Origin: Phycisphaerae bacterium
Lineage (GTDB): Bacteria; Planctomycetota; Phycisphaerae; UBA1845
Assembly: GCA_029260165.1 (NCBI GenBank)
Contig: JAJDDT010000050.1
Location: 1-64,000, forward strand
DNA length: 64,000 nucleotides
Reading direction: 5' to 3'
A program made the position numbers and the translations under genes. Positions 26,507-37,040 of the stretch are shown one piece after another. Position 1 is the stretch's first letter. Each line of letters starts with the position of its first letter. The notes below the pieces were generated by a model, which saw only the letters and a program-made list of their open reading frames with translations, did not search any database and was not told the DNA's origin.

Positions 26507-26661
26507 GCGCGTTTGTCGGAGTCCGTCACAAACGCGACGATCCGACGGGCACGGTCACATCGCGCCTTTGCATATGTATGTTCTGCAGCGTCGCCCCACA
26601 TGGACGGGGTGGCCGGCGGTCCCGGTCGACCATGCACCGGCGGTACGCGTGCCCTGCGCGC

Positions 26662-26706
26662 AAAAACCCCGCGGCGGCCCCGGTCGCGAAACAGCTCGCG
26701 GGGTTC
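26662..26706 (-). terminator. Intrinsic terminator of the mini-CRISPR RNA
   Basis: Minus strand AACCCCGCG...CGCGGGGTTTTT. Confidence 0.75.
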
Positions 26707-26832
26707 CGCAGGGTCAATGGGGCCACGACCCGAAGGCCGTGGAAATTGTCTCTCTCGCGAGAGATGCATACCGACCAAGACAATCCTTCAATGGGGCTCC
26801 TTGATGGAGAAAAGGGGACTTTCTTGGCTCTT
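26662..26832 (-). ncRNA. Putative crRNA-like regulatory RNA (CreR/CreA-like mini-CRISPR), about 170 nt
   Basis: Minus strand: pseudo-repeat 26785-26820, 38-nt spacer-like 26747-26784, pseudo-repeat 26711-26746 (27/36 identical to the array repeat, stem kept with a UUCG-type loop), then terminator; promoter TTGACC-N17-TAGAAT just upstream. Confidence 0.75.
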
Positions 26833-26859
26833 GACATAATTCTATCGGCTCCGCAGAAT
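26831..26859 (+). promoter_or_regulatory. Putative sigma70-type promoter reading toward the sigma-like gene/cas operon
   Basis: TTGACA (26831-26836)-N17-CAGAAT (26854-26859). Confidence 0.6.
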
Positions 26860-26867
26860 CCGGTCAA
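26839..26867 (-). promoter_or_regulatory. Putative sigma70-type promoter of the mini-CRISPR RNA
   Basis: Minus strand TTGACC (26867-26862)-N17-TAGAAT (26844-26839). Confidence 0.6.
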
Positions 26868-26880
26868 GACAATATTGTTT

Positions 26881-26898
26881 ATTGTCTTCGTAGGTATG
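26881..26898 (+). promoter_or_regulatory. Putative protospacer-like target of the mini-CRISPR RNA, 5' TTT PAM at 26878-26880
   Basis: ATTGTCTTCGTAGGTATG vs spacer 5' end ATTGTCTTGGTCGGTATG: 16/18 identical, first 8 perfect. Confidence 0.65.
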
Positions 26899-26983
26899 AG
26901 GTCACACGACAAGACGTCAGCCCATACCTATGAGTGAGGTGGCGACGCTCTGCCGCTGCTCTTCCTTGAACGGAGGTATCAAC

Positions 26984-27405
26984 ATGGCGTTTTTTCGATT
27001 TCCCGCATATGACCGTGACGACCTGAAGCAGGATTTGCAACTCACTCTGCACAAACAGGTATTTCCGGTTCCACTTCAAGCCTCGATTACACAATCACTC
27101 GCCGCAAGTTAAAAGATATTACCAAGCGAGAGAAGAAACGACGACACCTGCCGCTTGACTTCTACATCGAACCGTGCCCCCCGAACCATCAACGCCTATA
27201 CGACGACGAATCGGTACACGAAGCGATAAAACTACTCCCGTCATGTGACAAGGATATCCTGCACCTCAAATACTTCGCGGATATGTCAATCCACGAAATT
27301 GCGGAACGACTCGGTCTCACACGGAGCGCAGTGCGCAAGCGAGTCTCTCGTGTCGTTCAAAAACTGGGTAAGTCGCTCGATCCGCCGTTTGGCTACGCCG
27401 CGTGA
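26984..27405 (+). pseudogene. Frameshifted sigma-70/ECF-like factor (or a 42-aa ORF followed by a sigma region-4 remnant)
   Basis: SD GGAGGT 26972-26977 then ATG 26984 MAFFRFPAYDRDDLKQDLQLTLHKQ... (stops after 42 aa). Another frame continues SLDYTITRRKLKDITKREKKRR...DKDILHLKYFADMSIHEIAERLGLTRSAVRKRVSRVVQKLGKSL to TGA 27405 with no ATG until 27283. Confidence 0.6.
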
Positions 27406-27577: not shown

Positions 27578-28795
27578 ATGTCCAATCAGTTAACACTGGA
27601 CGTTCTCAAGAAGGCTGTCACGGGTTCAGCCGCGGCGTTTCGTTGTTTAACGGAGTATCAGCCTGCGGGGGGTCCGGGGGACAAGGTTTTCCCACCGACG
27701 TACGAAGGCGGGAAGTATGCGACGGAGAAGCGGAGGCTGGAAAAGGAATCCGAGCCTGTCGATTGCGTGCTGCTCGATTCGGTGCAGTCGCAGGCGAATC
27801 GTATGGAGGAGGCGTTGCGCGACGCGTGGGATCGGGAGCAGATTCCGCTGCCGGTCATCTCGGTTGATTTTGGTGGCAACGATCTGGCGAAATCGCTGCG
27901 CGTCACGAGTTTGGATGCGCCGCATCGCATTGCCGACGCGATCCTGCGCGACAGCCTGCTGAACGGAAAGGCGTTCCGGGAATCGGACAAAGGGAAGCAA
28001 CTGGATCATCTCGACAACCGCCATGCGACGGCGTTGTTCGAACTGTGTCCGACGGCGCTCGTTTTCGGCATGTGGGACTCGACGGGGCCGCGCGGTGGTT
28101 TGGGAGCCAAGTTCGCGCGGGCGATGGTGTCGGAGATCGTGGGGATCAACGCCGTTGCAGGTGTCAAAACGAGCAGCAGGATTGATCCTGCTGAAATCAG
28201 ACGCGATGCCGGACCGCTGTATGTTGCAAAAGAAGGTGGGTGGACGCTGGAAGAAGAAGATGCGAAACGTGAGAAGTCCGGTCCGATCAAGCTTGGCAAA
28301 GACGGGAAACCTTCTGAAGCTAATCATGGGAACATTCCACCGTCGATTGGTGACGGTGGGGTGACCATCGTCAAGGCCGTTCAAACGACGGTGCTTTCGC
28401 TGCCTGCGTTGCGGCGGTTGCGGTTTCCAATCAATGAAAAGCGCGATCCCAGGGTGGACGATGCCGCGCGGACGGTGTTGGCGGCGCTTGGGTTGTGTGC
28501 GGCTACGTTGTTTCAGGAGCAGGGATGCGACCTGCGCTCGCGGTGCCAACTGGTTCCGGTCGATGCGTTCGGATGGGAGTTGATCGGCAAGCCCGGTGAG
28601 GATGTGAAGATTCTTGAGATTACCGCTGAGACGGCGGTCAGTGTGTACAAGTCCGCCGTCAAAGAGGCTGCCAAGGTGAAGCTGCCGTGGATGGAAGACG
28701 TGTTGGAACTGACGCCTTCACCGGAACTGGTGGAGCTGGTCAGGAGGAGTCAGAACCTTGCTGCGGGCGTGGGTGCCGAGGAAGGGGGCGAGTGA
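27578..28795 (+). CDS. csb1: Type I-G (I-U) CRISPR-associated protein Csb1 (Cas7, GSU0053 family)
   Basis: Gene context plus sequence (LTLDVLKKAVTGSAAAFRCLTEYQPAGGPGDKVFPPTY...ALFELCPTALVFGMWDSTGPRGGLGAKFARAMVSEIVG); RBS AAAGGAG; start 27578. Confidence 0.92.
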   Translation: MSNQLTLDVLKKAVTGSAAAFRCLTEYQPAGGPGDKVFPPTYEGGKYATEKRRLEKESEPVDCVLLDSVQSQANRMEEALRDAWDREQIPLPVISVDFGGNDLAKSLRVTSLDAPHRIADAILRDSLLNGKAFRESDKGKQLDHLDNRHATALFELCPTALVFGMWDSTGPRGGLGAKFARAMVSEIVGINAVAGVKTSSRIDPAEIRRDAGPLYVAKEGGWTLEEEDAKREKSGPIKLGKDGKPSEANHGNIPPSIGDGGVTIVKAVQTTVLSLPALRRLRFPINEKRDPRVDDAARTVLAALGLCAATLFQEQGCDLRSRCQLVPVDAFGWELIGKPGEDVKILEITAETAVSVYKSAVKEAAKVKLPWMEDVLELTPSPELVELVRRSQNLAAGVGAEEGGE

Positions 28796-30474
28796 TGTTG
28801 GCGCTTGGAATTCGGTACTTGTGTGGGGTGGTCCGTGCGACGCATCCGAGCAACCGCGAACGTGCGGAGTGGCCACCGCATCCTGATCGCGTGTTCATGG
28901 CGATGGCGTCGGCGTATTTCGAGACGGACGGATCGCCGACGGAAAGGGCCGCACTGGAGTGGTTCGAGCGACAGGAACCGCCGCGAATTCACGCCGGTGG
29001 GTGTCAATACAGAGAGATCGTTACGTCGTATGTGCCGGTGAATGACACCGTCGCCCCGCGGTTGAATCCAAAGAAGCCGTATTCCGATGCTCAGGTCAAG
29101 AGCGGTATGGGACTGCTTCCGGAACATCGCAACCGCCAGCCGAGGTTCTTTCCGACCGCGATCCCGGATACTGCGGGACCTGATGTTGATCCAATGGTGC
29201 ATCTTTCGTGGCCGGATGCTGATCCATCGTCTGAGATCCGTTCCGCACTGGTCGCGTTGTGTGCGAAGGTGACATGCGTGGGGCACTCGTCGTCGCTCGT
29301 GCAGATGAGCGTTGAGGACGCTCCGCCGGATGACCGGCTAAACAAATGGTTGCCGGATGAGCGACCCAACGGTCAACGACTGCGAATCAGCGGTTCCGGT
29401 CGACTCTCGTACCTGGAATCTCAGTTCAACCTTGCCGATATCGAGGAGTACCAACAATTGTCGGTTGAAATCGGTACTGCGAAGGGCAAGGCAGCGAAGG
29501 AGTTGAAGGCGCGATTGAAGAAGCGGTTTGGCGAATCGCCACCTCGATCGATGCGACCCACGCCGTCACTCTACCAGGGGTACACCTGCGCGGAGCCTGA
29601 GGATGTCAGCGACGATATCTCGCGGTCCGTTTTTGATCACCATCTGATTGTGTTGCGTCGGGTCGGCGGGCGGCGGTTTGGGCTGGAATCGACACTTCAG
29701 ATCACGGAGGCGCTGCGAAATACTGTTATGGGGAAGTGTCGCAGGCAACCGCCACCGGAGTGGATCAGCGGGCACAAACCGGACGGCAGTCGCAGCGAGA
29801 AACCACATCTCGCGTTTGTCCCACTCGCGTTCGTGGATCGTGAGCACGCGGATGGCCATCTTCTTGGCGCGGCCATCGTCGTTCCGCGTGGGATTGACTC
29901 CAGCGAGATGCGCCAACTGGGAAAGGTCATTGGTTATGACAAAAACGGCGAACTGCTGCGTACCACGTTGACATTTGGCAAGTCGGGCGAGTGGGAATTG
30001 CAGGTTCAAGTCGAGGACCGTGACGTCGTGCCCGTAACGTTGCAAGAGGCGAAATGGACGGCAAATTACCCGAAGAAGCCGAAAAAGCAGAAGCCACAGT
30101 GTTGGGCGACGGTTACGCCCATCGTGTTCGACGCGCACCCGAAGGATCGCTGGAGCAGGCAGGACTCGCCGCGGGTTCAAGCTGAGCGTCAGGCATCGTA
30201 CTGGTGTCAGGTCGAAGACATGATCGCGTCCGCCGTCGAGCGGATCGGTTTGCCTCGTCCGACAGACGTCGTTGCAAAGGCAACATCGCCATTCATCGGC
30301 ACACCGCACGCCCGGAGTTTTCCCATGATGACGCGCAAAGGTGGTGGGAATCTCCATCACACGCATGCGATCATTACGTTTGAGGAACCGGTGCTCGGAC
30401 CCGTGCTGCTGGGGGCTGGGCGATATCGCGGGTATGGCTTTTGTCGGCCGCTGTCAAAAGGGGACGAGTCATGA
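28795..30474 (+). CDS. csb2: Type I-G (I-U) CRISPR-associated protein Csb2 (Cas5/Cas6, GSU0054 family)
   Basis: MLALGIRYLCGVVRATHPSNRERAEWPPHPDRVFMAMASAYFET; TGATG overlap with csb1. Confidence 0.92.
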   Translation: MLALGIRYLCGVVRATHPSNRERAEWPPHPDRVFMAMASAYFETDGSPTERAALEWFERQEPPRIHAGGCQYREIVTSYVPVNDTVAPRLNPKKPYSDAQVKSGMGLLPEHRNRQPRFFPTAIPDTAGPDVDPMVHLSWPDADPSSEIRSALVALCAKVTCVGHSSSLVQMSVEDAPPDDRLNKWLPDERPNGQRLRISGSGRLSYLESQFNLADIEEYQQLSVEIGTAKGKAAKELKARLKKRFGESPPRSMRPTPSLYQGYTCAEPEDVSDDISRSVFDHHLIVLRRVGGRRFGLESTLQITEALRNTVMGKCRRQPPPEWISGHKPDGSRSEKPHLAFVPLAFVDREHADGHLLGAAIVVPRGIDSSEMRQLGKVIGYDKNGELLRTTLTFGKSGEWELQVQVEDRDVVPVTLQEAKWTANYPKKPKKQKPQCWATVTPIVFDAHPKDRWSRQDSPRVQAERQASYWCQVEDMIASAVERIGLPRPTDVVAKATSPFIGTPHARSFPMMTRKGGGNLHHTHAIITFEEPVLGPVLLGAGRYRGYGFCRPLSKGDES

Positions 30475-33365
30475 CAAAGAAAGAGGCACCGTTGTCCGCG
30501 AGCAATTTCCCTGATTTCTTCCACGAATTGTGGGATTACGACCCATTTCCGTGGCAGAAACGGCTCGCCGATCGCGTGTGCGAGGGTGATTGGCCTGCGT
30601 GCATCGCGCTGCCGACGGCGAGCGGCAAGACGGCGTGCATCGACATCGCGGTGTTCGCGCTCGCATGTCAGGCCAGTCGACCGGCTGCGGAGCGTACCGC
30701 TCCGCGTCGTATATTCTTCGTTGTCGATCGGCGCGTTGTTGTTGATCAAGCCTATGAAAGAGCGAAGGATCTGAGCAGGAAGCTGGCAGAGTTGAAAACA
30801 GAAATCGCGCGCCGCGTGGCTGACGCGTTGCGACATCTCTCAGGCGACGATCGACCACTGGATTGCTACGCCCTCCGTGGCGGGATGTATCGCGAGACCG
30901 CGTGGGTGAGATCTCCGTTGCAGCCGATCGTGATCACCTCGACGGTCGATCAGGTCGGCAGCCGCTTGCTGTTCCACGGATACGGTGTTTCGGATTCGCT
31001 CAAGCCGATGCACGCCGGATTGATCGGGAACGACTCGCTCATTCTGCTCGACGAGGCCCACTGTTCCAGGCCGTTTGAGCAGACCGTGAAGGCTGTTGGG
31101 GAATTCCGGAAATGGCGGCAACGGGATGACGAATCACTGCCACCGTTTCGATTCGTGACCATGACAGCCACGCCGTCCCCGGGCGTTCCCGATGACCAAA
31201 TCGAGCGAGATAACGCCGACGATCGTAACGATAGGGTGTTGGGGAAGCGGATCAAAGCGAGCAAGCCAACCAGGCTCGTCGTGGCCAGGAAAGCAAGTGG
31301 GAAAGAGTGGCGAAAACACCTGGTAGACGAACTGTCCAGACAAACGCGCGAGCTTGTCGATGAGGGATTTCGCGCGGTCGGCGTGATTGTGAATCGCGTG
31401 GCGACGGCGCGTGAGACGGCGCGTAAAATGGAGGAAGGCCTCAAGAAGGATAGTAAGGTCATTCTGCTGACGGGCCGAATGAGACCAGTGGATCGCGACG
31501 AGATCATGAGCGAACTCGCCCCGCTATTAACGGGCAACCCGGACAAAATATCCGAGCCGCTGGTCGTTGTCGCAACGCAGTGTCTGGAAGTGGGTGCCGA
31601 CCTCGATTTTCACGCGTTGGTCACCGAGTGTGCCAGCCTGGATGCCCTTCGTCAGCGATTTGGTCGGCTCAATCGTCGCGCGGACAGGACGGAGGCGAAG
31701 GCAGTTGTCGTCATCCGAAAAGATCAAATCAAGCCCGCCAAGAAAGAATCCGAAAGCGACCCCGTATACGGCAATAGCCTGGCCCATACATGGGAATGGC
31801 TTGAGAAGAACGCATCGGACGGCATGTTTGACTTCGGCACGGCGGCGGTGAACGCGAAAACCTCGGATTTGGACGCCGATAAATTCGCGTCTCTAAATGC
31901 CCCATCGGTGGACGCTGCCGTTCTTCTGCCCGCCTACCTGGACTGTTGGGTGCAGACCAGCCCCATACCAACGCCGGACCCGGACCCAGCCGTTTTTCTG
32001 CACGGTCCTTCGCGCGGCGTGCCGAACGTGCAGGTGGTGTTGCGTGGTGACCTTGGTTTGAATGACAAGGCGTGGGGAGAGATCGTCTCGCTTTGCCCAC
32101 CGTCTTCGTCCGAGGCACTGCCGGTGCGGATCGATGTCTTCAATCGCTGGCTGAGCGGGGTCGATGCGACAGACGACACGAGCGACGTCGAAGGCGAACG
32201 CAGCGACAACGAAGAACAGCCGAAAGATGCCAACCATCGTTCGGACCGCAAGGCACTGCGATGGCGTGGTTCCGACTCAGACCAAACGAAGGTCATCAGG
32301 GAACCCGGCCAGGTTTTTGCGAACGATGTGTACATCCTGTCCACAATCGCCGACGGGTTGACCGACCTGGGGGGCTTCCTCGGAAAAATCCCGGCAGACC
32401 ACGCTGAAGAGGCGTATCAGATTTCACGCGACCGCGCGATTCTACGTTTGACGCCGGAGATATGGAAGATTCCGACGCTCGATGACGTCGATATGGAAAC
32501 CGATGGGCTTGATGAAATTCTATCCGATGCCATCGGTGCACTGGTCAATGATCCCTCGGAATGGATTCGTACCGCGGCTGCGAATTTGGAAAAAGCAGAA
32601 CGGCGATCGGTCAAGTCGCATCCGTCAGGCGGGTTTGTCGTGATCGGCAGAAACCGTCTTGGTCGTTTCGACCCTACCGGGGCCAAGGTGGTCAAGCCGC
32701 GCGCGTCATCGCTGAGGGGGCCAGTCACGCTCGGAAAACACAGCGATGACGTGGCCAGGTGCGCCGAACGATTTGCCACCGAATGTGGGTTGAAATCGGC
32801 TGACGCCTTCAAACTCGCGGGCCTGCTCCACGACATCGGCAAGGCCGATCCCCGGTTCCAGGCATGGCTTCATGGCGGCAACCGGCGTAAGGCGGAGTGG
32901 CGTGAACCGCTGGCCAAGTCCATCAACCCACCGCGCAGCCGCGATGAAAGCAGCAGGTTTCGCGAGCACGCGGGCTATCCGAAGGGCGGACGCCACGAAC
33001 TCCTTTCCGTCCGCCTGGCTGAATGCAACGGTGTGCTCCCGGCAGATCCCGACGCCCGTGACCTGATTCTCCACCTGATCGCGAGTCATCATGGCCGGTG
33101 CAGACCCTTCGCGCCGGTCGTACAGGACGCAATGCCTGAGGAAGTACGTTACCAACTCAATGAATCGACGACTCTCGCAACGTCCACCGCAACGGGTCTC
33201 GAACGTCTCGACAGCGGGGTGGCTGAGCGGTTCTGGAAGCTCGTCCGACGCCACGGCTGGTGGGGATTAGCCTACCTCGAAGCCATCCTGCGACTGGCCG
33301 ACTGGCAGGCGAGCGAAGCGGAGACCCATAGTGCAACTGACACCAACAAGGAGGGAAAACCATGA
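30471..33365 (+). CDS. cas3: CRISPR-associated helicase/nuclease Cas3 with C-terminal HD domain
   Basis: LPTASGKTACIDIA, LILLDEAHCSRPFEQT, TMTATPS, LEVGADLDFHALVTECASLDALRQRFGRLNRR; HD motif LAGLLHDIGKADPRFQAW near C-terminus. Confidence 0.95.
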   Translation: MTKKEAPLSASNFPDFFHELWDYDPFPWQKRLADRVCEGDWPACIALPTASGKTACIDIAVFALACQASRPAAERTAPRRIFFVVDRRVVVDQAYERAKDLSRKLAELKTEIARRVADALRHLSGDDRPLDCYALRGGMYRETAWVRSPLQPIVITSTVDQVGSRLLFHGYGVSDSLKPMHAGLIGNDSLILLDEAHCSRPFEQTVKAVGEFRKWRQRDDESLPPFRFVTMTATPSPGVPDDQIERDNADDRNDRVLGKRIKASKPTRLVVARKASGKEWRKHLVDELSRQTRELVDEGFRAVGVIVNRVATARETARKMEEGLKKDSKVILLTGRMRPVDRDEIMSELAPLLTGNPDKISEPLVVVATQCLEVGADLDFHALVTECASLDALRQRFGRLNRRADRTEAKAVVVIRKDQIKPAKKESESDPVYGNSLAHTWEWLEKNASDGMFDFGTAAVNAKTSDLDADKFASLNAPSVDAAVLLPAYLDCWVQTSPIPTPDPDPAVFLHGPSRGVPNVQVVLRGDLGLNDKAWGEIVSLCPPSSSEALPVRIDVFNRWLSGVDATDDTSDVEGERSDNEEQPKDANHRSDRKALRWRGSDSDQTKVIREPGQVFANDVYILSTIADGLTDLGGFLGKIPADHAEEAYQISRDRAILRLTPEIWKIPTLDDVDMETDGLDEILSDAIGALVNDPSEWIRTAAANLEKAERRSVKSHPSGGFVVIGRNRLGRFDPTGAKVVKPRASSLRGPVTLGKHSDDVARCAERFATECGLKSADAFKLAGLLHDIGKADPRFQAWLHGGNRRKAEWREPLAKSINPPRSRDESSRFREHAGYPKGGRHELLSVRLAECNGVLPADPDARDLILHLIASHHGRCRPFAPVVQDAMPEEVRYQLNESTTLATSTATGLERLDSGVAERFWKLVRRHGWWGLAYLEAILRLADWQASEAETHSATDTNKEGKP

Positions 33366-34285
33366 GCGAACTGATCCTGACCGGACTCGACGGAAGCAAT
33401 CCCCTCGCATTCCTCGCGGCACTGGGTACGTTGCGCGGACTAACCCGCGCCTGGCCGGAATCCAACGTCCGGATGTCCTGGACCACCGACGGAGGCTGGC
33501 GACCGGTGATCAATTCGGAATGCTGCGAACCGGAAAGCATCGTCGAGGCGTTGTACGAAAGACTCCAGGCTGCGAAGGACAACGCAACGCTCGGCTTGGC
33601 CGACAACCTGACGATTCCCGCCGACGAGTATCGCGCGCATCTTGTCCAACAAATCGAAACGCAAGAAGATCCAGACAGCGATGCGACTGCATACTGCGCC
33701 GCATTCGGGTGCGATGCAATATTCGACGAAAAAAGTGGTAACATCAAAGATACCGCACTACGCACCATGAGCGGGGCCGGTCACCAGCATTTCCTCAAGA
33801 CGATGCGCGACGTACTGGCGCAGACGACGAAGGAGCACATCGACAAAACCCTGTTCAACCACTGGCAATACGACGATCCTCTCGCAACACTCAGCTTGCG
33901 TTTCGACCCATCGGACGACAAAAGGTACGCCCTGCGATGGGATGACCCCAGTGGCGACCCGACCCGCAGGAGTCAAGGCAACATGCTCGGTGCCAACGCA
34001 CTCGCAGTTCTGGGCATCCCTTTTCTCGTTGTGGCCCCCGTCTGTGGCGGACTTGGTTCAACAGGTTTCAAAGGCTCCCTGGCGAGGGATACCTATTGGA
34101 CCTGGCCAATGTGGAAGCATCCTGCGTCGCTCGATGTCGCGCGCTCGCTGCTCACCCTGAGCGAACTACAGGAGGAAAGTCCGCCTCGCGACCGGCTCCG
34201 CCCGAGGGGCATCGCGGAGGTCTTTCGCAGTCAGCGGCTCACCACGGGCAAGTTTCGCAACTTCACCCCCGCCCAACCGGTCTGA
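33362..34285 (+). CDS. Type I-G effector subunit, Csb3/'Cas3-extension' (Cas8-like) family
   Basis: 307 aa ORF overlapping cas3 (ATGA); LTGLDGSNPLAFLAALGTLRGL N-terminus; position between cas3 and cas4/cas1. Confidence 0.7.
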   Translation: MSELILTGLDGSNPLAFLAALGTLRGLTRAWPESNVRMSWTTDGGWRPVINSECCEPESIVEALYERLQAAKDNATLGLADNLTIPADEYRAHLVQQIETQEDPDSDATAYCAAFGCDAIFDEKSGNIKDTALRTMSGAGHQHFLKTMRDVLAQTTKEHIDKTLFNHWQYDDPLATLSLRFDPSDDKRYALRWDDPSGDPTRRSQGNMLGANALAVLGIPFLVVAPVCGGLGSTGFKGSLARDTYWTWPMWKHPASLDVARSLLTLSELQEESPPRDRLRPRGIAEVFRSQRLTTGKFRNFTPAQPV

Positions 34286-34416
34286 GCGGAGCGTGACGAA
34301 TCGCCGATCCAGGCCTCGGTGATGACAAGTGAAGCACCGATCGCTTCACGTCGATCTTTGACAAGTGAATAGAGATTCCGGCGGGGCCGCCCGCCTCGCG
34401 ATTATTGGAGGTTCCT

Positions 34417-36237
34417 ATGAATCCCCCATCGACGCCCACGAACACGGGACCGGATGCGGCGACGTCAGATTCGCCCGATCTCCTCCCCGTTCGCATGATC
34501 AACGAATTCGCCTACTGCCCCCGACTGTTCCATCTCATGCGCGTCGAGGGCCGTTGGGCGGACAACGTCTACACCATCGAGGGCAAAGCCGTCCATCGGC
34601 GCGTCGACCAACTCGATCACGTCCTGCCGAACGCCGACGGAGTCACCACGGAGGCATCCACGTCCGATACAGATTCGTCGGAAGAAACGGACCAACGTCC
34701 TGCCGCGAAGAAAACGACATCCGCCTCCACGAGCGACACCGATGAGCCACCCGTCGTGACACGCAGCGTCCCTCTGGACAGCACCCGTCTGGGACTGACA
34801 GCCAAACTCGATCTCGTATCCACCGCCGCCGGACCGGACGGCGTTTCTGAAGCGGTTCCCGTCGAAACCAAGCGAGGCCGCGTCCCCAAAACCCCCGAGC
34901 GATCCTACGAACCCGAACGCGTGCAACTCATGGCCCAGGGACTACTGCTCCGCGAGCATGACTACCGCTGTGATCACGGCGTGCTCTATTTTTCCGGCTC
35001 GCGAACGCGCGTGGACGTTCCGTTCACACCGGAACTGGAGGCCCGCACGATCGCGTTGATCGAGCAGGCTCGTCAAGCCGCAACACAACGCGATCTGCCG
35101 CCACCTCTCGACGACAGTCCCAAATGCGCCGGATGTTCGCTCAATGGAATCTGTCTCCCGGACGAGACTCTCGCCCTCCAACAGGTTCCACCGGACACCG
35201 TCGCACCGAACGTCCGCAGGCTCTACCCTTCACGCGACGACGCACTCCCATTCTACGTCCAGGAGCAGGGCACCAAAGTCGGCAAGTCCGGTAAGACCCT
35301 CATCGTAAAAAAGAGCGGCGAGGAGTTGGGACGAGCCAAGCTCAAGAACGTCAGCCAACTCGTACTCTGTGGGAACATCTCCGTCTCCGCACAAACGACG
35401 CACCTGCTCTGCGACGCAGGCATCCCCATTGTCCACCTGTCGAGCGGCAACTGGTTCTACGGCATCACGCACGGGATCCACCTGCGCAACGCCTACGATC
35501 GTGCAGCCCAGTTCGCAGTCGCAACGCAGCCGGATCGCTGCCTTGAATTCGCCAGGAGCCTCGTCGCCGCAAAGGGTGTCAACCAGCGCACCATGATACG
35601 CAGAAACGCGTCACCCCCGGACGATATTCTGCGAGACATGAACGACCTGATCGCTCGCGTACCCAGTGCCGCCGGCCTGCCGCAACTCCTCGGATTCGAG
35701 GGCAATCTGGCCGCCTGCTATTTCCGCCACTTCGCCGACATGCTCAAACCGCGCGACTTCGATGCCCGGTTCGATCTCGCCGGCAGAAACCGTCGCCCTC
35801 CCAGAGACCCCGTCAACGCCATGCTGTCTTTTGGTTATTCATTACTGACCAAAGAGTTCACCGTCGCGCTGTTGGCCGAGGGACTCGATCCGTGGTGGGG
35901 TTTGTACCATCAGCCGCGACATGGGAGGCCAGCACTCGCGTTGGATCTCATGGAACCCTTTCGACCGCTTGTCGTCGACTCCGCCGTCGTCTCAGCCATC
36001 AACACAGGCATGGTCCGCGCCGCCGACTTCACACGATCCGCCAACGGGTGCATGCTGAAAGCCCCGGGTCGCAAGGGTTTCATTCGGGCGTACGAAAACC
36101 GCCTCGATCAGATCGTCACGCATCCGGTCTTCGACTACCAGTGCGCTTGGCGCGCCATGATCCGACTGCATGCCAAACTGTTCAGCCGTTGGCTTCGCGG
36201 CGACGTCCCAACCTATTCAAGTATCACGACGCGCTGA
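34417..36237 (+). CDS. cas4/cas1: Cas4-Cas1 fusion protein
   Basis: Cas4: MINEFAYCPRLFHL...VPVETKRGR...CAGCSLNGIC; Cas1: LPFYVQEQGTKVGKSGKTLIVKKSGEELGRAKLKNVSQLVLCGNISVSAQTTHLLCDAGIPIVHLSSGNWFYG; SD GGAGG upstream of ATG 34417. Confidence 0.95.
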   Translation: MNPPSTPTNTGPDAATSDSPDLLPVRMINEFAYCPRLFHLMRVEGRWADNVYTIEGKAVHRRVDQLDHVLPNADGVTTEASTSDTDSSEETDQRPAAKKTTSASTSDTDEPPVVTRSVPLDSTRLGLTAKLDLVSTAAGPDGVSEAVPVETKRGRVPKTPERSYEPERVQLMAQGLLLREHDYRCDHGVLYFSGSRTRVDVPFTPELEARTIALIEQARQAATQRDLPPPLDDSPKCAGCSLNGICLPDETLALQQVPPDTVAPNVRRLYPSRDDALPFYVQEQGTKVGKSGKTLIVKKSGEELGRAKLKNVSQLVLCGNISVSAQTTHLLCDAGIPIVHLSSGNWFYGITHGIHLRNAYDRAAQFAVATQPDRCLEFARSLVAAKGVNQRTMIRRNASPPDDILRDMNDLIARVPSAAGLPQLLGFEGNLAACYFRHFADMLKPRDFDARFDLAGRNRRPPRDPVNAMLSFGYSLLTKEFTVALLAEGLDPWWGLYHQPRHGRPALALDLMEPFRPLVVDSAVVSAINTGMVRAADFTRSANGCMLKAPGRKGFIRAYENRLDQIVTHPVFDYQCAWRAMIRLHAKLFSRWLRGDVPTYSSITTR

Positions 36238-36238
36238 C

Positions 36239-36529
36239 ATGGCACGAAAACAATTCCTCATCACCTACGACGTCAGCGATGACAAACGACGCAACAGTTT
36301 GTTCAGGACACTCACCGCCAACGGCGACCATGTGCAATTCAGCGTCTTTCTCTGCGCGTTGAACCCAATGGAACTCGCCGGCTTGCGTGCTGTGATGAAT
36401 GAAACAATCAATCACCGCGAGGATCAGGTCGTTATCGTTGACCTCGGAAATGCGAATTCCGACGCCTCGCCCCTTCTCGATTGCCTCGGAAAACGATATA
36501 ATCCGCCGACACGCGTGCAGGTGATCTGA
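36239..36529 (+). CDS. cas2: CRISPR-associated endoribonuclease Cas2
   Basis: MARKQFLITYDVSDDKRRNSLFRTLTANGDHVQFSVFLC. Confidence 0.95.
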   Translation: MARKQFLITYDVSDDKRRNSLFRTLTANGDHVQFSVFLCALNPMELAGLRAVMNETINHREDQVVIVDLGNANSDASPLLDCLGKRYNPPTRVQVI

Positions 36530-36713: not shown

Positions 36714-37040
36714 ATTCCCACGACCAAAAGGCCGTGGCCCCATTGAAGCGGTGTCAGGATATGCTCGGGCCACTCAACCGACCACCAATTCCCACGACCA
36801 AAAGGCCGTGGCCCCATTGAAGCCAGAGCTTACAAACTCCGGCGTCGCAAGCATCACAGATTCCCACGACCAAAAGGCCGTGGCCCCATTGAAGCTCTTT
36901 CCGAGGAAATGATCGATCTAATCAACGCAGAATTCCCACGACCAAAAGGCCGTGGCCCCATTGAAGCACCGAACACGAGCTGGGATTGGCCACGCTGCTG
37001 ATGCATTCCCACGACCAAAAGGCCGTGGCCCCCAGTGTTC
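36714..37040 (+). CRISPR. CRISPR array, 5 repeats / 4 spacers, repeat ATTCCCACGACCAAAAGGCCGTGGCCCCATTGAAGC
   Basis: Repeats at 36714, 36788, 36860, 36932, 37005 (last degenerate after nt 28); spacers 38, 36, 36, 37 nt. Repeat 3' end ATTGAAGC resembles the canonical 8-nt 5' handle, so + strand orientation with leader 36530-36713. Confidence 0.98.

Follow-up and report, generated by a model that had tools for sequence, protein, structure and literature searches.

Repression of transcription by a CRISPR effector through partial pairing is known for scaRNA/Cas9 and tracr-L/Cas9, which differ from the type I-G element analyzed here in having a class 2 effector and another RNA architecture. Cas-regulating RNAs (CreRs) were reportedly described by Liu et al. 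in 2023 (Cell Host Microbe), and Shmakov et al. are said to have found, also in 2023 (NAR), standalone repeat pairs, mostly in type I systems, around a spacer with partial complementarity to cas promoters; our element resembles these mini-arrays in both the standalone repeat pair and the partly cas promoter-complementary spacer. The type I-G effector is, to our knowledge, the least studied of the type I effectors, and no Cas5 subunit holds its 5' handle.

CreRs have been reported in types I-B, I-E and V-A (PMC13131331, a 2026 review) and in type I and V-A (PMC12737573). CreA, the RNA of the CreTA modules, pairs at nucleotides 1-5 and 7-11 and carries diverged repeats (PMC8501985, PMC9458426); scaRNA is also mentioned in PMC9458426. 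For the type I-G effector, the PAM is TTN, Csb2 cleaves 4 nt past the hairpin, so that a handle of 8 nt remains, and every sixth base is flipped out in Cas7 (PMC9638904). We found no report of a CreR in type I-G in the literature covered, outside of which lie the two 2023 surveys, and the candidate described here would extend RNA-guided self-regulation to type I-G, which is new as far as we have found. The original prediction for this locus proposed a CreA- or CreR-like RNA acting with the I-G Cascade; the sequence supports such an RNA, favors CreR over CreA, and adds a target that had been overlooked. We consider it very likely that the element is a CreR-like cas-regulating RNA that would bring about repression of the cas operon by its own Csb1/Csb2 Cascade.

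The crRNA-like RNA gene and its type I-G neighborhood

The window, that is, the 64-kb stretch of Phycisphaerae DNA analyzed here, contains a plus-strand cas operon that NCBIfam types as I-G from csb1 to cas2, as had been predicted. The operon consists of csb1 (cas7g; 27578-28795), csb2 (28687-30474), which is the cas5/6 gene of I-G and encodes the crRNA-processing subunit (function from PMC9638904), cas3g (30441-33365), a gene for a type I-G Cas3-extension family protein (33362-34285), a cas4g-cas1g fusion (34405-36237) and cas2 (36170-36529). It is followed by the true CRISPR array (36714-37040, plus strand), with 4 exact repeats, a degenerate terminal repeat and 4 spacers of 36-38 nt (repeat spacing 74, 72, 72 and 73), such that the locus contains all the components of a type I-G host system (csb1, csb2, cas3g, cas4g/1g, cas2 and an array).

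Near this operon, outside the array and divergent from the cas genes, lies a crRNA-like gene with repeat-derived sequences, as is characteristic of CreRs, that extends from 26867 to 26657 on the minus strand. The gene begins with a sigma70-like promoter (26839-26867; TTGACC-N17-TAGAAT, 10/12 to the consensus, promoter calls here being consensus matches only, which differ between loci), with a predicted start that precedes the guide by about 47 nt. Degenerate repeat 1 (26785-26820), the spacer-like guide of 38 nt (ATTGTCTTGGTCGGTATG...; 26747-26784), which falls, as originally noted, inside the length range of the real spacers, and degenerate repeat 2 (26711-26746) follow on the same strand. 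The gene ends with a terminator-like GC-rich hairpin and a U run (26657-26708, minus strand; fold -28 kcal/mol); the loop of this hairpin exceeds the length allowed by the terminator scan, and it was detected by folding. With its own promoter and terminator-like hairpin, the element therefore has the makeup of a complete small-RNA gene.

The original description of the two repeats holds in full. Repeat 2 is identical to the array repeat at 27 of 36 positions, and the next-best match outside the array, over both strands of the window, is 22/36; the changes from AAAA to a TTCG loop and from an A/C mismatch to a G.U pair preserve the hairpin, which folds with 8 bp (-14.1 kcal/mol for the repeat). 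Along with this UUCG-loop hairpin, repeat 2 keeps CCCCATTGA and has lost the handle end, so that its order is hairpin, CCCC, ATTGA. Repeat 1, with 20/36 identical positions overall, keeps GCCCCATTGAAG, in the order CCCC and the 8-nt 5' handle ATTGAAGG (26792-26785), and has lost the original hairpin, with a small CTCC/GGAG stem present. The repeats have thus diverged in complementary ways, repeat 1 keeping the future 5' handle and repeat 2 the future 3' hairpin. As in CreA, two diverged repeats flank the guide, and repeat 1 is more diverged than repeat 2.

Degenerate repeats around a single spacer could also represent a decayed, inactive fragment of an array with a former phage spacer. However, the promoter and the terminator-like hairpin are kept, the repeats decayed in the complementary manner just described, and the guide, for which we found no phage match, matches the local promoter region, as do the guides of 13 relatives (see below). 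We reject this extremely improbable explanation because of the kept gene signals and the local targets in the window and in the 13 relatives.

A search of the RNA-gene region identified no Rfam match. In the unprocessed transcript (26838-26655, minus strand), base pairing is possible between the leader CCAAGAAAGUCC and the start of the guide GGAUUGUCUUGG, and this pairing might mask the guide until processing.

The target site and its counterparts in related loci

The features overlooked by the original prediction are the RNA promoter, the terminator-like hairpin, a frameshifted sigma-like gene and a target with a TTT PAM. Nucleotides 1-18 of the guide match the plus strand at 26881-26898 in 16 of 18 positions (protospacer 26881-26918, plus strand), with mismatches at positions 9 and 12 and no match beyond nucleotide 18, and the PAM-like TTT (26878-26880, plus strand; the I-G PAM being TTN) is located immediately in front. 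This is the best guide match across the whole 4.4-Mb genome in a pattern search; the runner-up site in the window matches at 13/18. A sigma70-like promoter facing the cas genes (26831-26859, plus strand; TTGACA-N17-CAGAAT) places the target at about +15 to +52 relative to its predicted start. Partial complementarity to the cas promoter or leader is a feature of CreRs, and in the window the sigma-like gene intervenes.

We gathered csb1 relatives by genome search and one contig scan, the latter yielding L036 from a Planctomycetaceae MAG, and examined the sequences upstream of csb1; at least one of the relatives is metagenome-assembled, and some contigs stop before the region of interest. Conservation upstream of csb1 had been proposed as a check of the original prediction, and indeed, paired degenerate repeats with a guide and a TTN-flanked target in the same locus are present in 14 of the 42 close I-G loci (the window, L036, L040, L041, L042, L108, L111, L112, L157, L163, L164, L165, L171 and L172). 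We defined the pattern on an initial set of loci, and L157, L163, L164, L165, L171 and L172 were added from loci fetched later; the handle motif CCCATTGAAG alone missed loci with repeats ending in CCGAATTGAAG, which were recovered with the ATTGAAG core and controls. Within 3.5 kb upstream of csb1 and at the sensitivity of this search, we detected no pair in the other 28 close loci, some of the contigs ending too soon, and no convincing pair in any of the 39 more distant I-G loci, whose csb1 shares about 30% identity.

The handle in repeat 1 is kept in nearly all 14 loci, and the hairpin in repeat 2 in all of them, 36-43 nt downstream of the guide start. The guide sequences are unrelated among the 14 loci, and each matches its own locus; for example, L036 has paired degenerate repeats at the same 74-nt spacing as the window, and its guide and its local target, which follows TTC, are both unrelated to those of the window. 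That guide and target change together under a constant layout is the strongest argument for function.

To quantify pairing, we counted matches over guide nucleotides 1-17 without the 6th and 12th (maximum 15), and the 14 pairs score 13-15. Pairing spans nucleotides 1-5, 7-11 and 13-17, the 5+1 rhythm also seen in CreA (nucleotides 1-5 and 7-11, with a PAM beside the target), and after nucleotides 17-18 the match level equals chance. Positions 6, 12 and 18, the bases flipped out by I-G Cas7, are mismatched in 11, 13 and 11 pairs, respectively, and the remaining positions within nucleotides 1-17 in 13 cases altogether. Since the score skips positions 6 and 12, chance alone gives about 75% mismatch there; with 11, 13 and 11 of the 14 pairs mismatched, positions 6, 12 and 18 are therefore unconstrained. 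For the seven pairs identified first, mismatches occur in 11 of 14 cases at positions 6 and 12 versus 5 of 105 at the other positions within 1-17 (Fisher p ~1e-9). The guide seen in the window departs from the rhythm, position 6 being matched and position 9 mismatched.

Controls gave far fewer matches: among 774 real array spacers, a single one reaches 14/15, without TTN; scrambled handle cores yield 0-1 hit and wrong PAMs 0-2 hits, in each case versus 17; and shuffled guides reached the observed score in 2 of 4000 trials for L108 and in 0 of 4000 for each of the other 13 pairs. Handle-plus-seed pairs thus occur almost only beside the subtype PAM TTN, a further CreR feature.

The target region of the window also contains a perfect 9-bp palindrome, AAGACAATA-TTGTT-TATTGTCTT (26866-26888), where none is expected by chance, that overlaps the predicted start site and the 5' end of the target; the palindrome is perhaps a protein operator, and given this overlap, a protein regulator may bind there as well. 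One could regard guide and target as mere copies of a protein-binding site, in that the palindrome AAGACAATATTGTTTATTGTCTT overlaps the target and ATTGTCT/AGACAAT bounds the guide as well. Such duplicated operators appear very improbable given that the matching sequences are unrelated over the 14 loci and always come right after the handle, and that TTN is always found at the target. Furthermore, simple duplication would be expected to leave few mismatches at positions 6, 12 and 18, which is not what the pairs show, and would not produce a 6-nt rhythm. We reject this explanation on the combination of unrelated sequences, handle, TTN and rhythm in the 14 loci.

Of the 14 loci, 11 have a plus-strand protospacer and the remaining 3 (L036, L041 and L111) a minus-strand one, which bears on the suggestion of an antisense RNA that acts on the cas leader transcript without Cascade. 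In these 3 loci, guide and protospacer are both on the minus strand, and pairing with the cas-ward mRNA is possible, but in the other 11, among them the window, the cas-ward mRNA shares the sense of the plus-strand protospacer and cannot pair with the guide. Targets on both strands rule out RNA-RNA antisense pairing as an account of the whole set; such pairing also leaves the PAM and the 6-nt rhythm unexplained, and with plus-strand protospacers in most of the loci, we reject it as having a practically negligible probability.

Several additional observations were made in the related loci. In L167, which we kept out of the 14 and which also shows a second partial match, a one-spacer mini-array at -3373 and -3446 relative to csb1 scores 13/15; its repeats are unlike those of the main array of the same locus and look like the array repeat of L168, a different I-G locus. 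The L167 guide partly matches sites at about -2803 and -2813 behind TTG, in front of a small gene, and this locus is likely to be a further guide-target case. In L042, a tRNA T-arm-like sequence, GGTTCGACTCC, lies between the guide target and csb1, at about -200 to -150 from the latter.

Genes between the target and csb1

In the window, a sigma-70 region-4 (ECF-like) gene (26984-27405, plus strand) sits between the RNA gene with its target and csb1. It contains a frameshift near 27055-27065, which could be either genuine decay or an assembly error. A sigma-factor-like gene, intact in each case, is also the first behind the target in L036, L111 and L157, and L105 seems to carry one too, its contig ending before the expected RNA-gene region. 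The sigma-like protein profile matches only pair-bearing loci, except for a weak match far upstream in L129. The folding of a candidate terminator between the sigma-like gene of the window and csb1 was unconvincing, and no terminator is claimed.

At the head of many I-G cas operons, beside the sigma-like gene or the guide target, stands a conserved small gene (about 70 aa, motif LR..F...LRK). It is the first or second gene in L036, L105, L108, L111, L164 and L165 and was also seen in L158, L167, L168 and L176; the family has no Pfam or NCBIfam match. In L111, a truncated cas3-like fragment (-661 to -27 relative to csb1) is present between the small gene and csb1.

In other relatives, the target is found directly before csb1, at -57 in L171, -91 in L041, -137 in L112 and -160 in L163, with no gene, toxin-like or other, in between. 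This arrangement speaks against an addiction module of the CreTA/CrePA kind, in which the guide would repress an RNA or protein toxin whose gene lies between target and cas operon, the cell being penalized for losing Cascade. The anatomy of the RNA and the partial pairing are those of CreA (PMC8501985), including the two diverged repeats and 5+1 seed pairing of CreTA, and a sigma-like gene, sometimes with a small gene, does occupy the required place in the window, L036, L111 and L157. Nevertheless, the intervening genes are sigma-factor-like or belong to the 70-aa family and none resembles a known toxin, no toxin-like gene was recognized under the target promoter in these four loci, and csb1 itself comes first in the four loci where only 57-160 nt separate it from the target. 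We therefore regard an addiction module as improbable, with a small probability left for an RNA toxin of an unknown kind: in differing from CreA by the absence of a recognized toxin and by a target right before csb1 in several relatives, the I-G loci favor cas regulation over toxin repression.

Proposed cas regulation in type I-G

In keeping with the CreR-like reading, the small crRNA-like gene adjoins the cas operon, its guide is partly complementary to the promoter region of that operon and, in the simplest I-G loci, there is no toxin. The I-G element differs from described CreRs in that it would use the Csb1/Csb2 effector with 17-nt pairing in three segments, and in the sigma-factor-like gene that is first behind the target in four I-G loci, perhaps also in L105. 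Since the guide matches the start region of its own operon and no virus, the CRISPR machinery most likely lowers its own production.

Under the model that we propose, the RNA would be transcribed leftward from its own promoter and cut by Csb2 3' of each degenerate-repeat hairpin, repeat 1 providing the 5' handle AUUGAAGG and repeat 2 the 3' hairpin. Cas6-type processing and effector binding, both CreR features, are suggested by the hairpin, the 4-nt spacer and the 8-nt handle, and make the RNA a candidate for loading into the Csb1/Csb2 effector. The loaded effector would then pair over three 5-nt segments with the TTN-flanked site shortly downstream of the start of the divergent promoter facing the sigma-like gene and the cas operon, and this partial pairing is predicted to allow binding without destruction by Cas3 and to block transcription, thereby repressing the cas genes. 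Because such a partially paired complex would bind and block transcription without Cas3 destruction, cas expression would be under feedback control, with release when array crRNAs or anti-CRISPRs occupy the effector.

A more elaborate, tentative possibility, which we rate well below direct cas repression, is that in one I-G lineage the guide silences the adjacent ECF-like sigma factor (and its small partner), which in turn activates the cas operon, forming a two-step circuit; the frameshifted sigma gene of the window would then represent a relay decaying to direct control.

Whichever the circuit, what the natural pairs keep is limited to three 5-nt segments within about 17 nt, the flipped bases being free to drift, and the 14 pairs provide a ready set for measuring the pairing needed for Cascade binding without DNA destruction. 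The sigma-factor layout, for its part, suggests a control circuit that is apparently new to the literature known to us.
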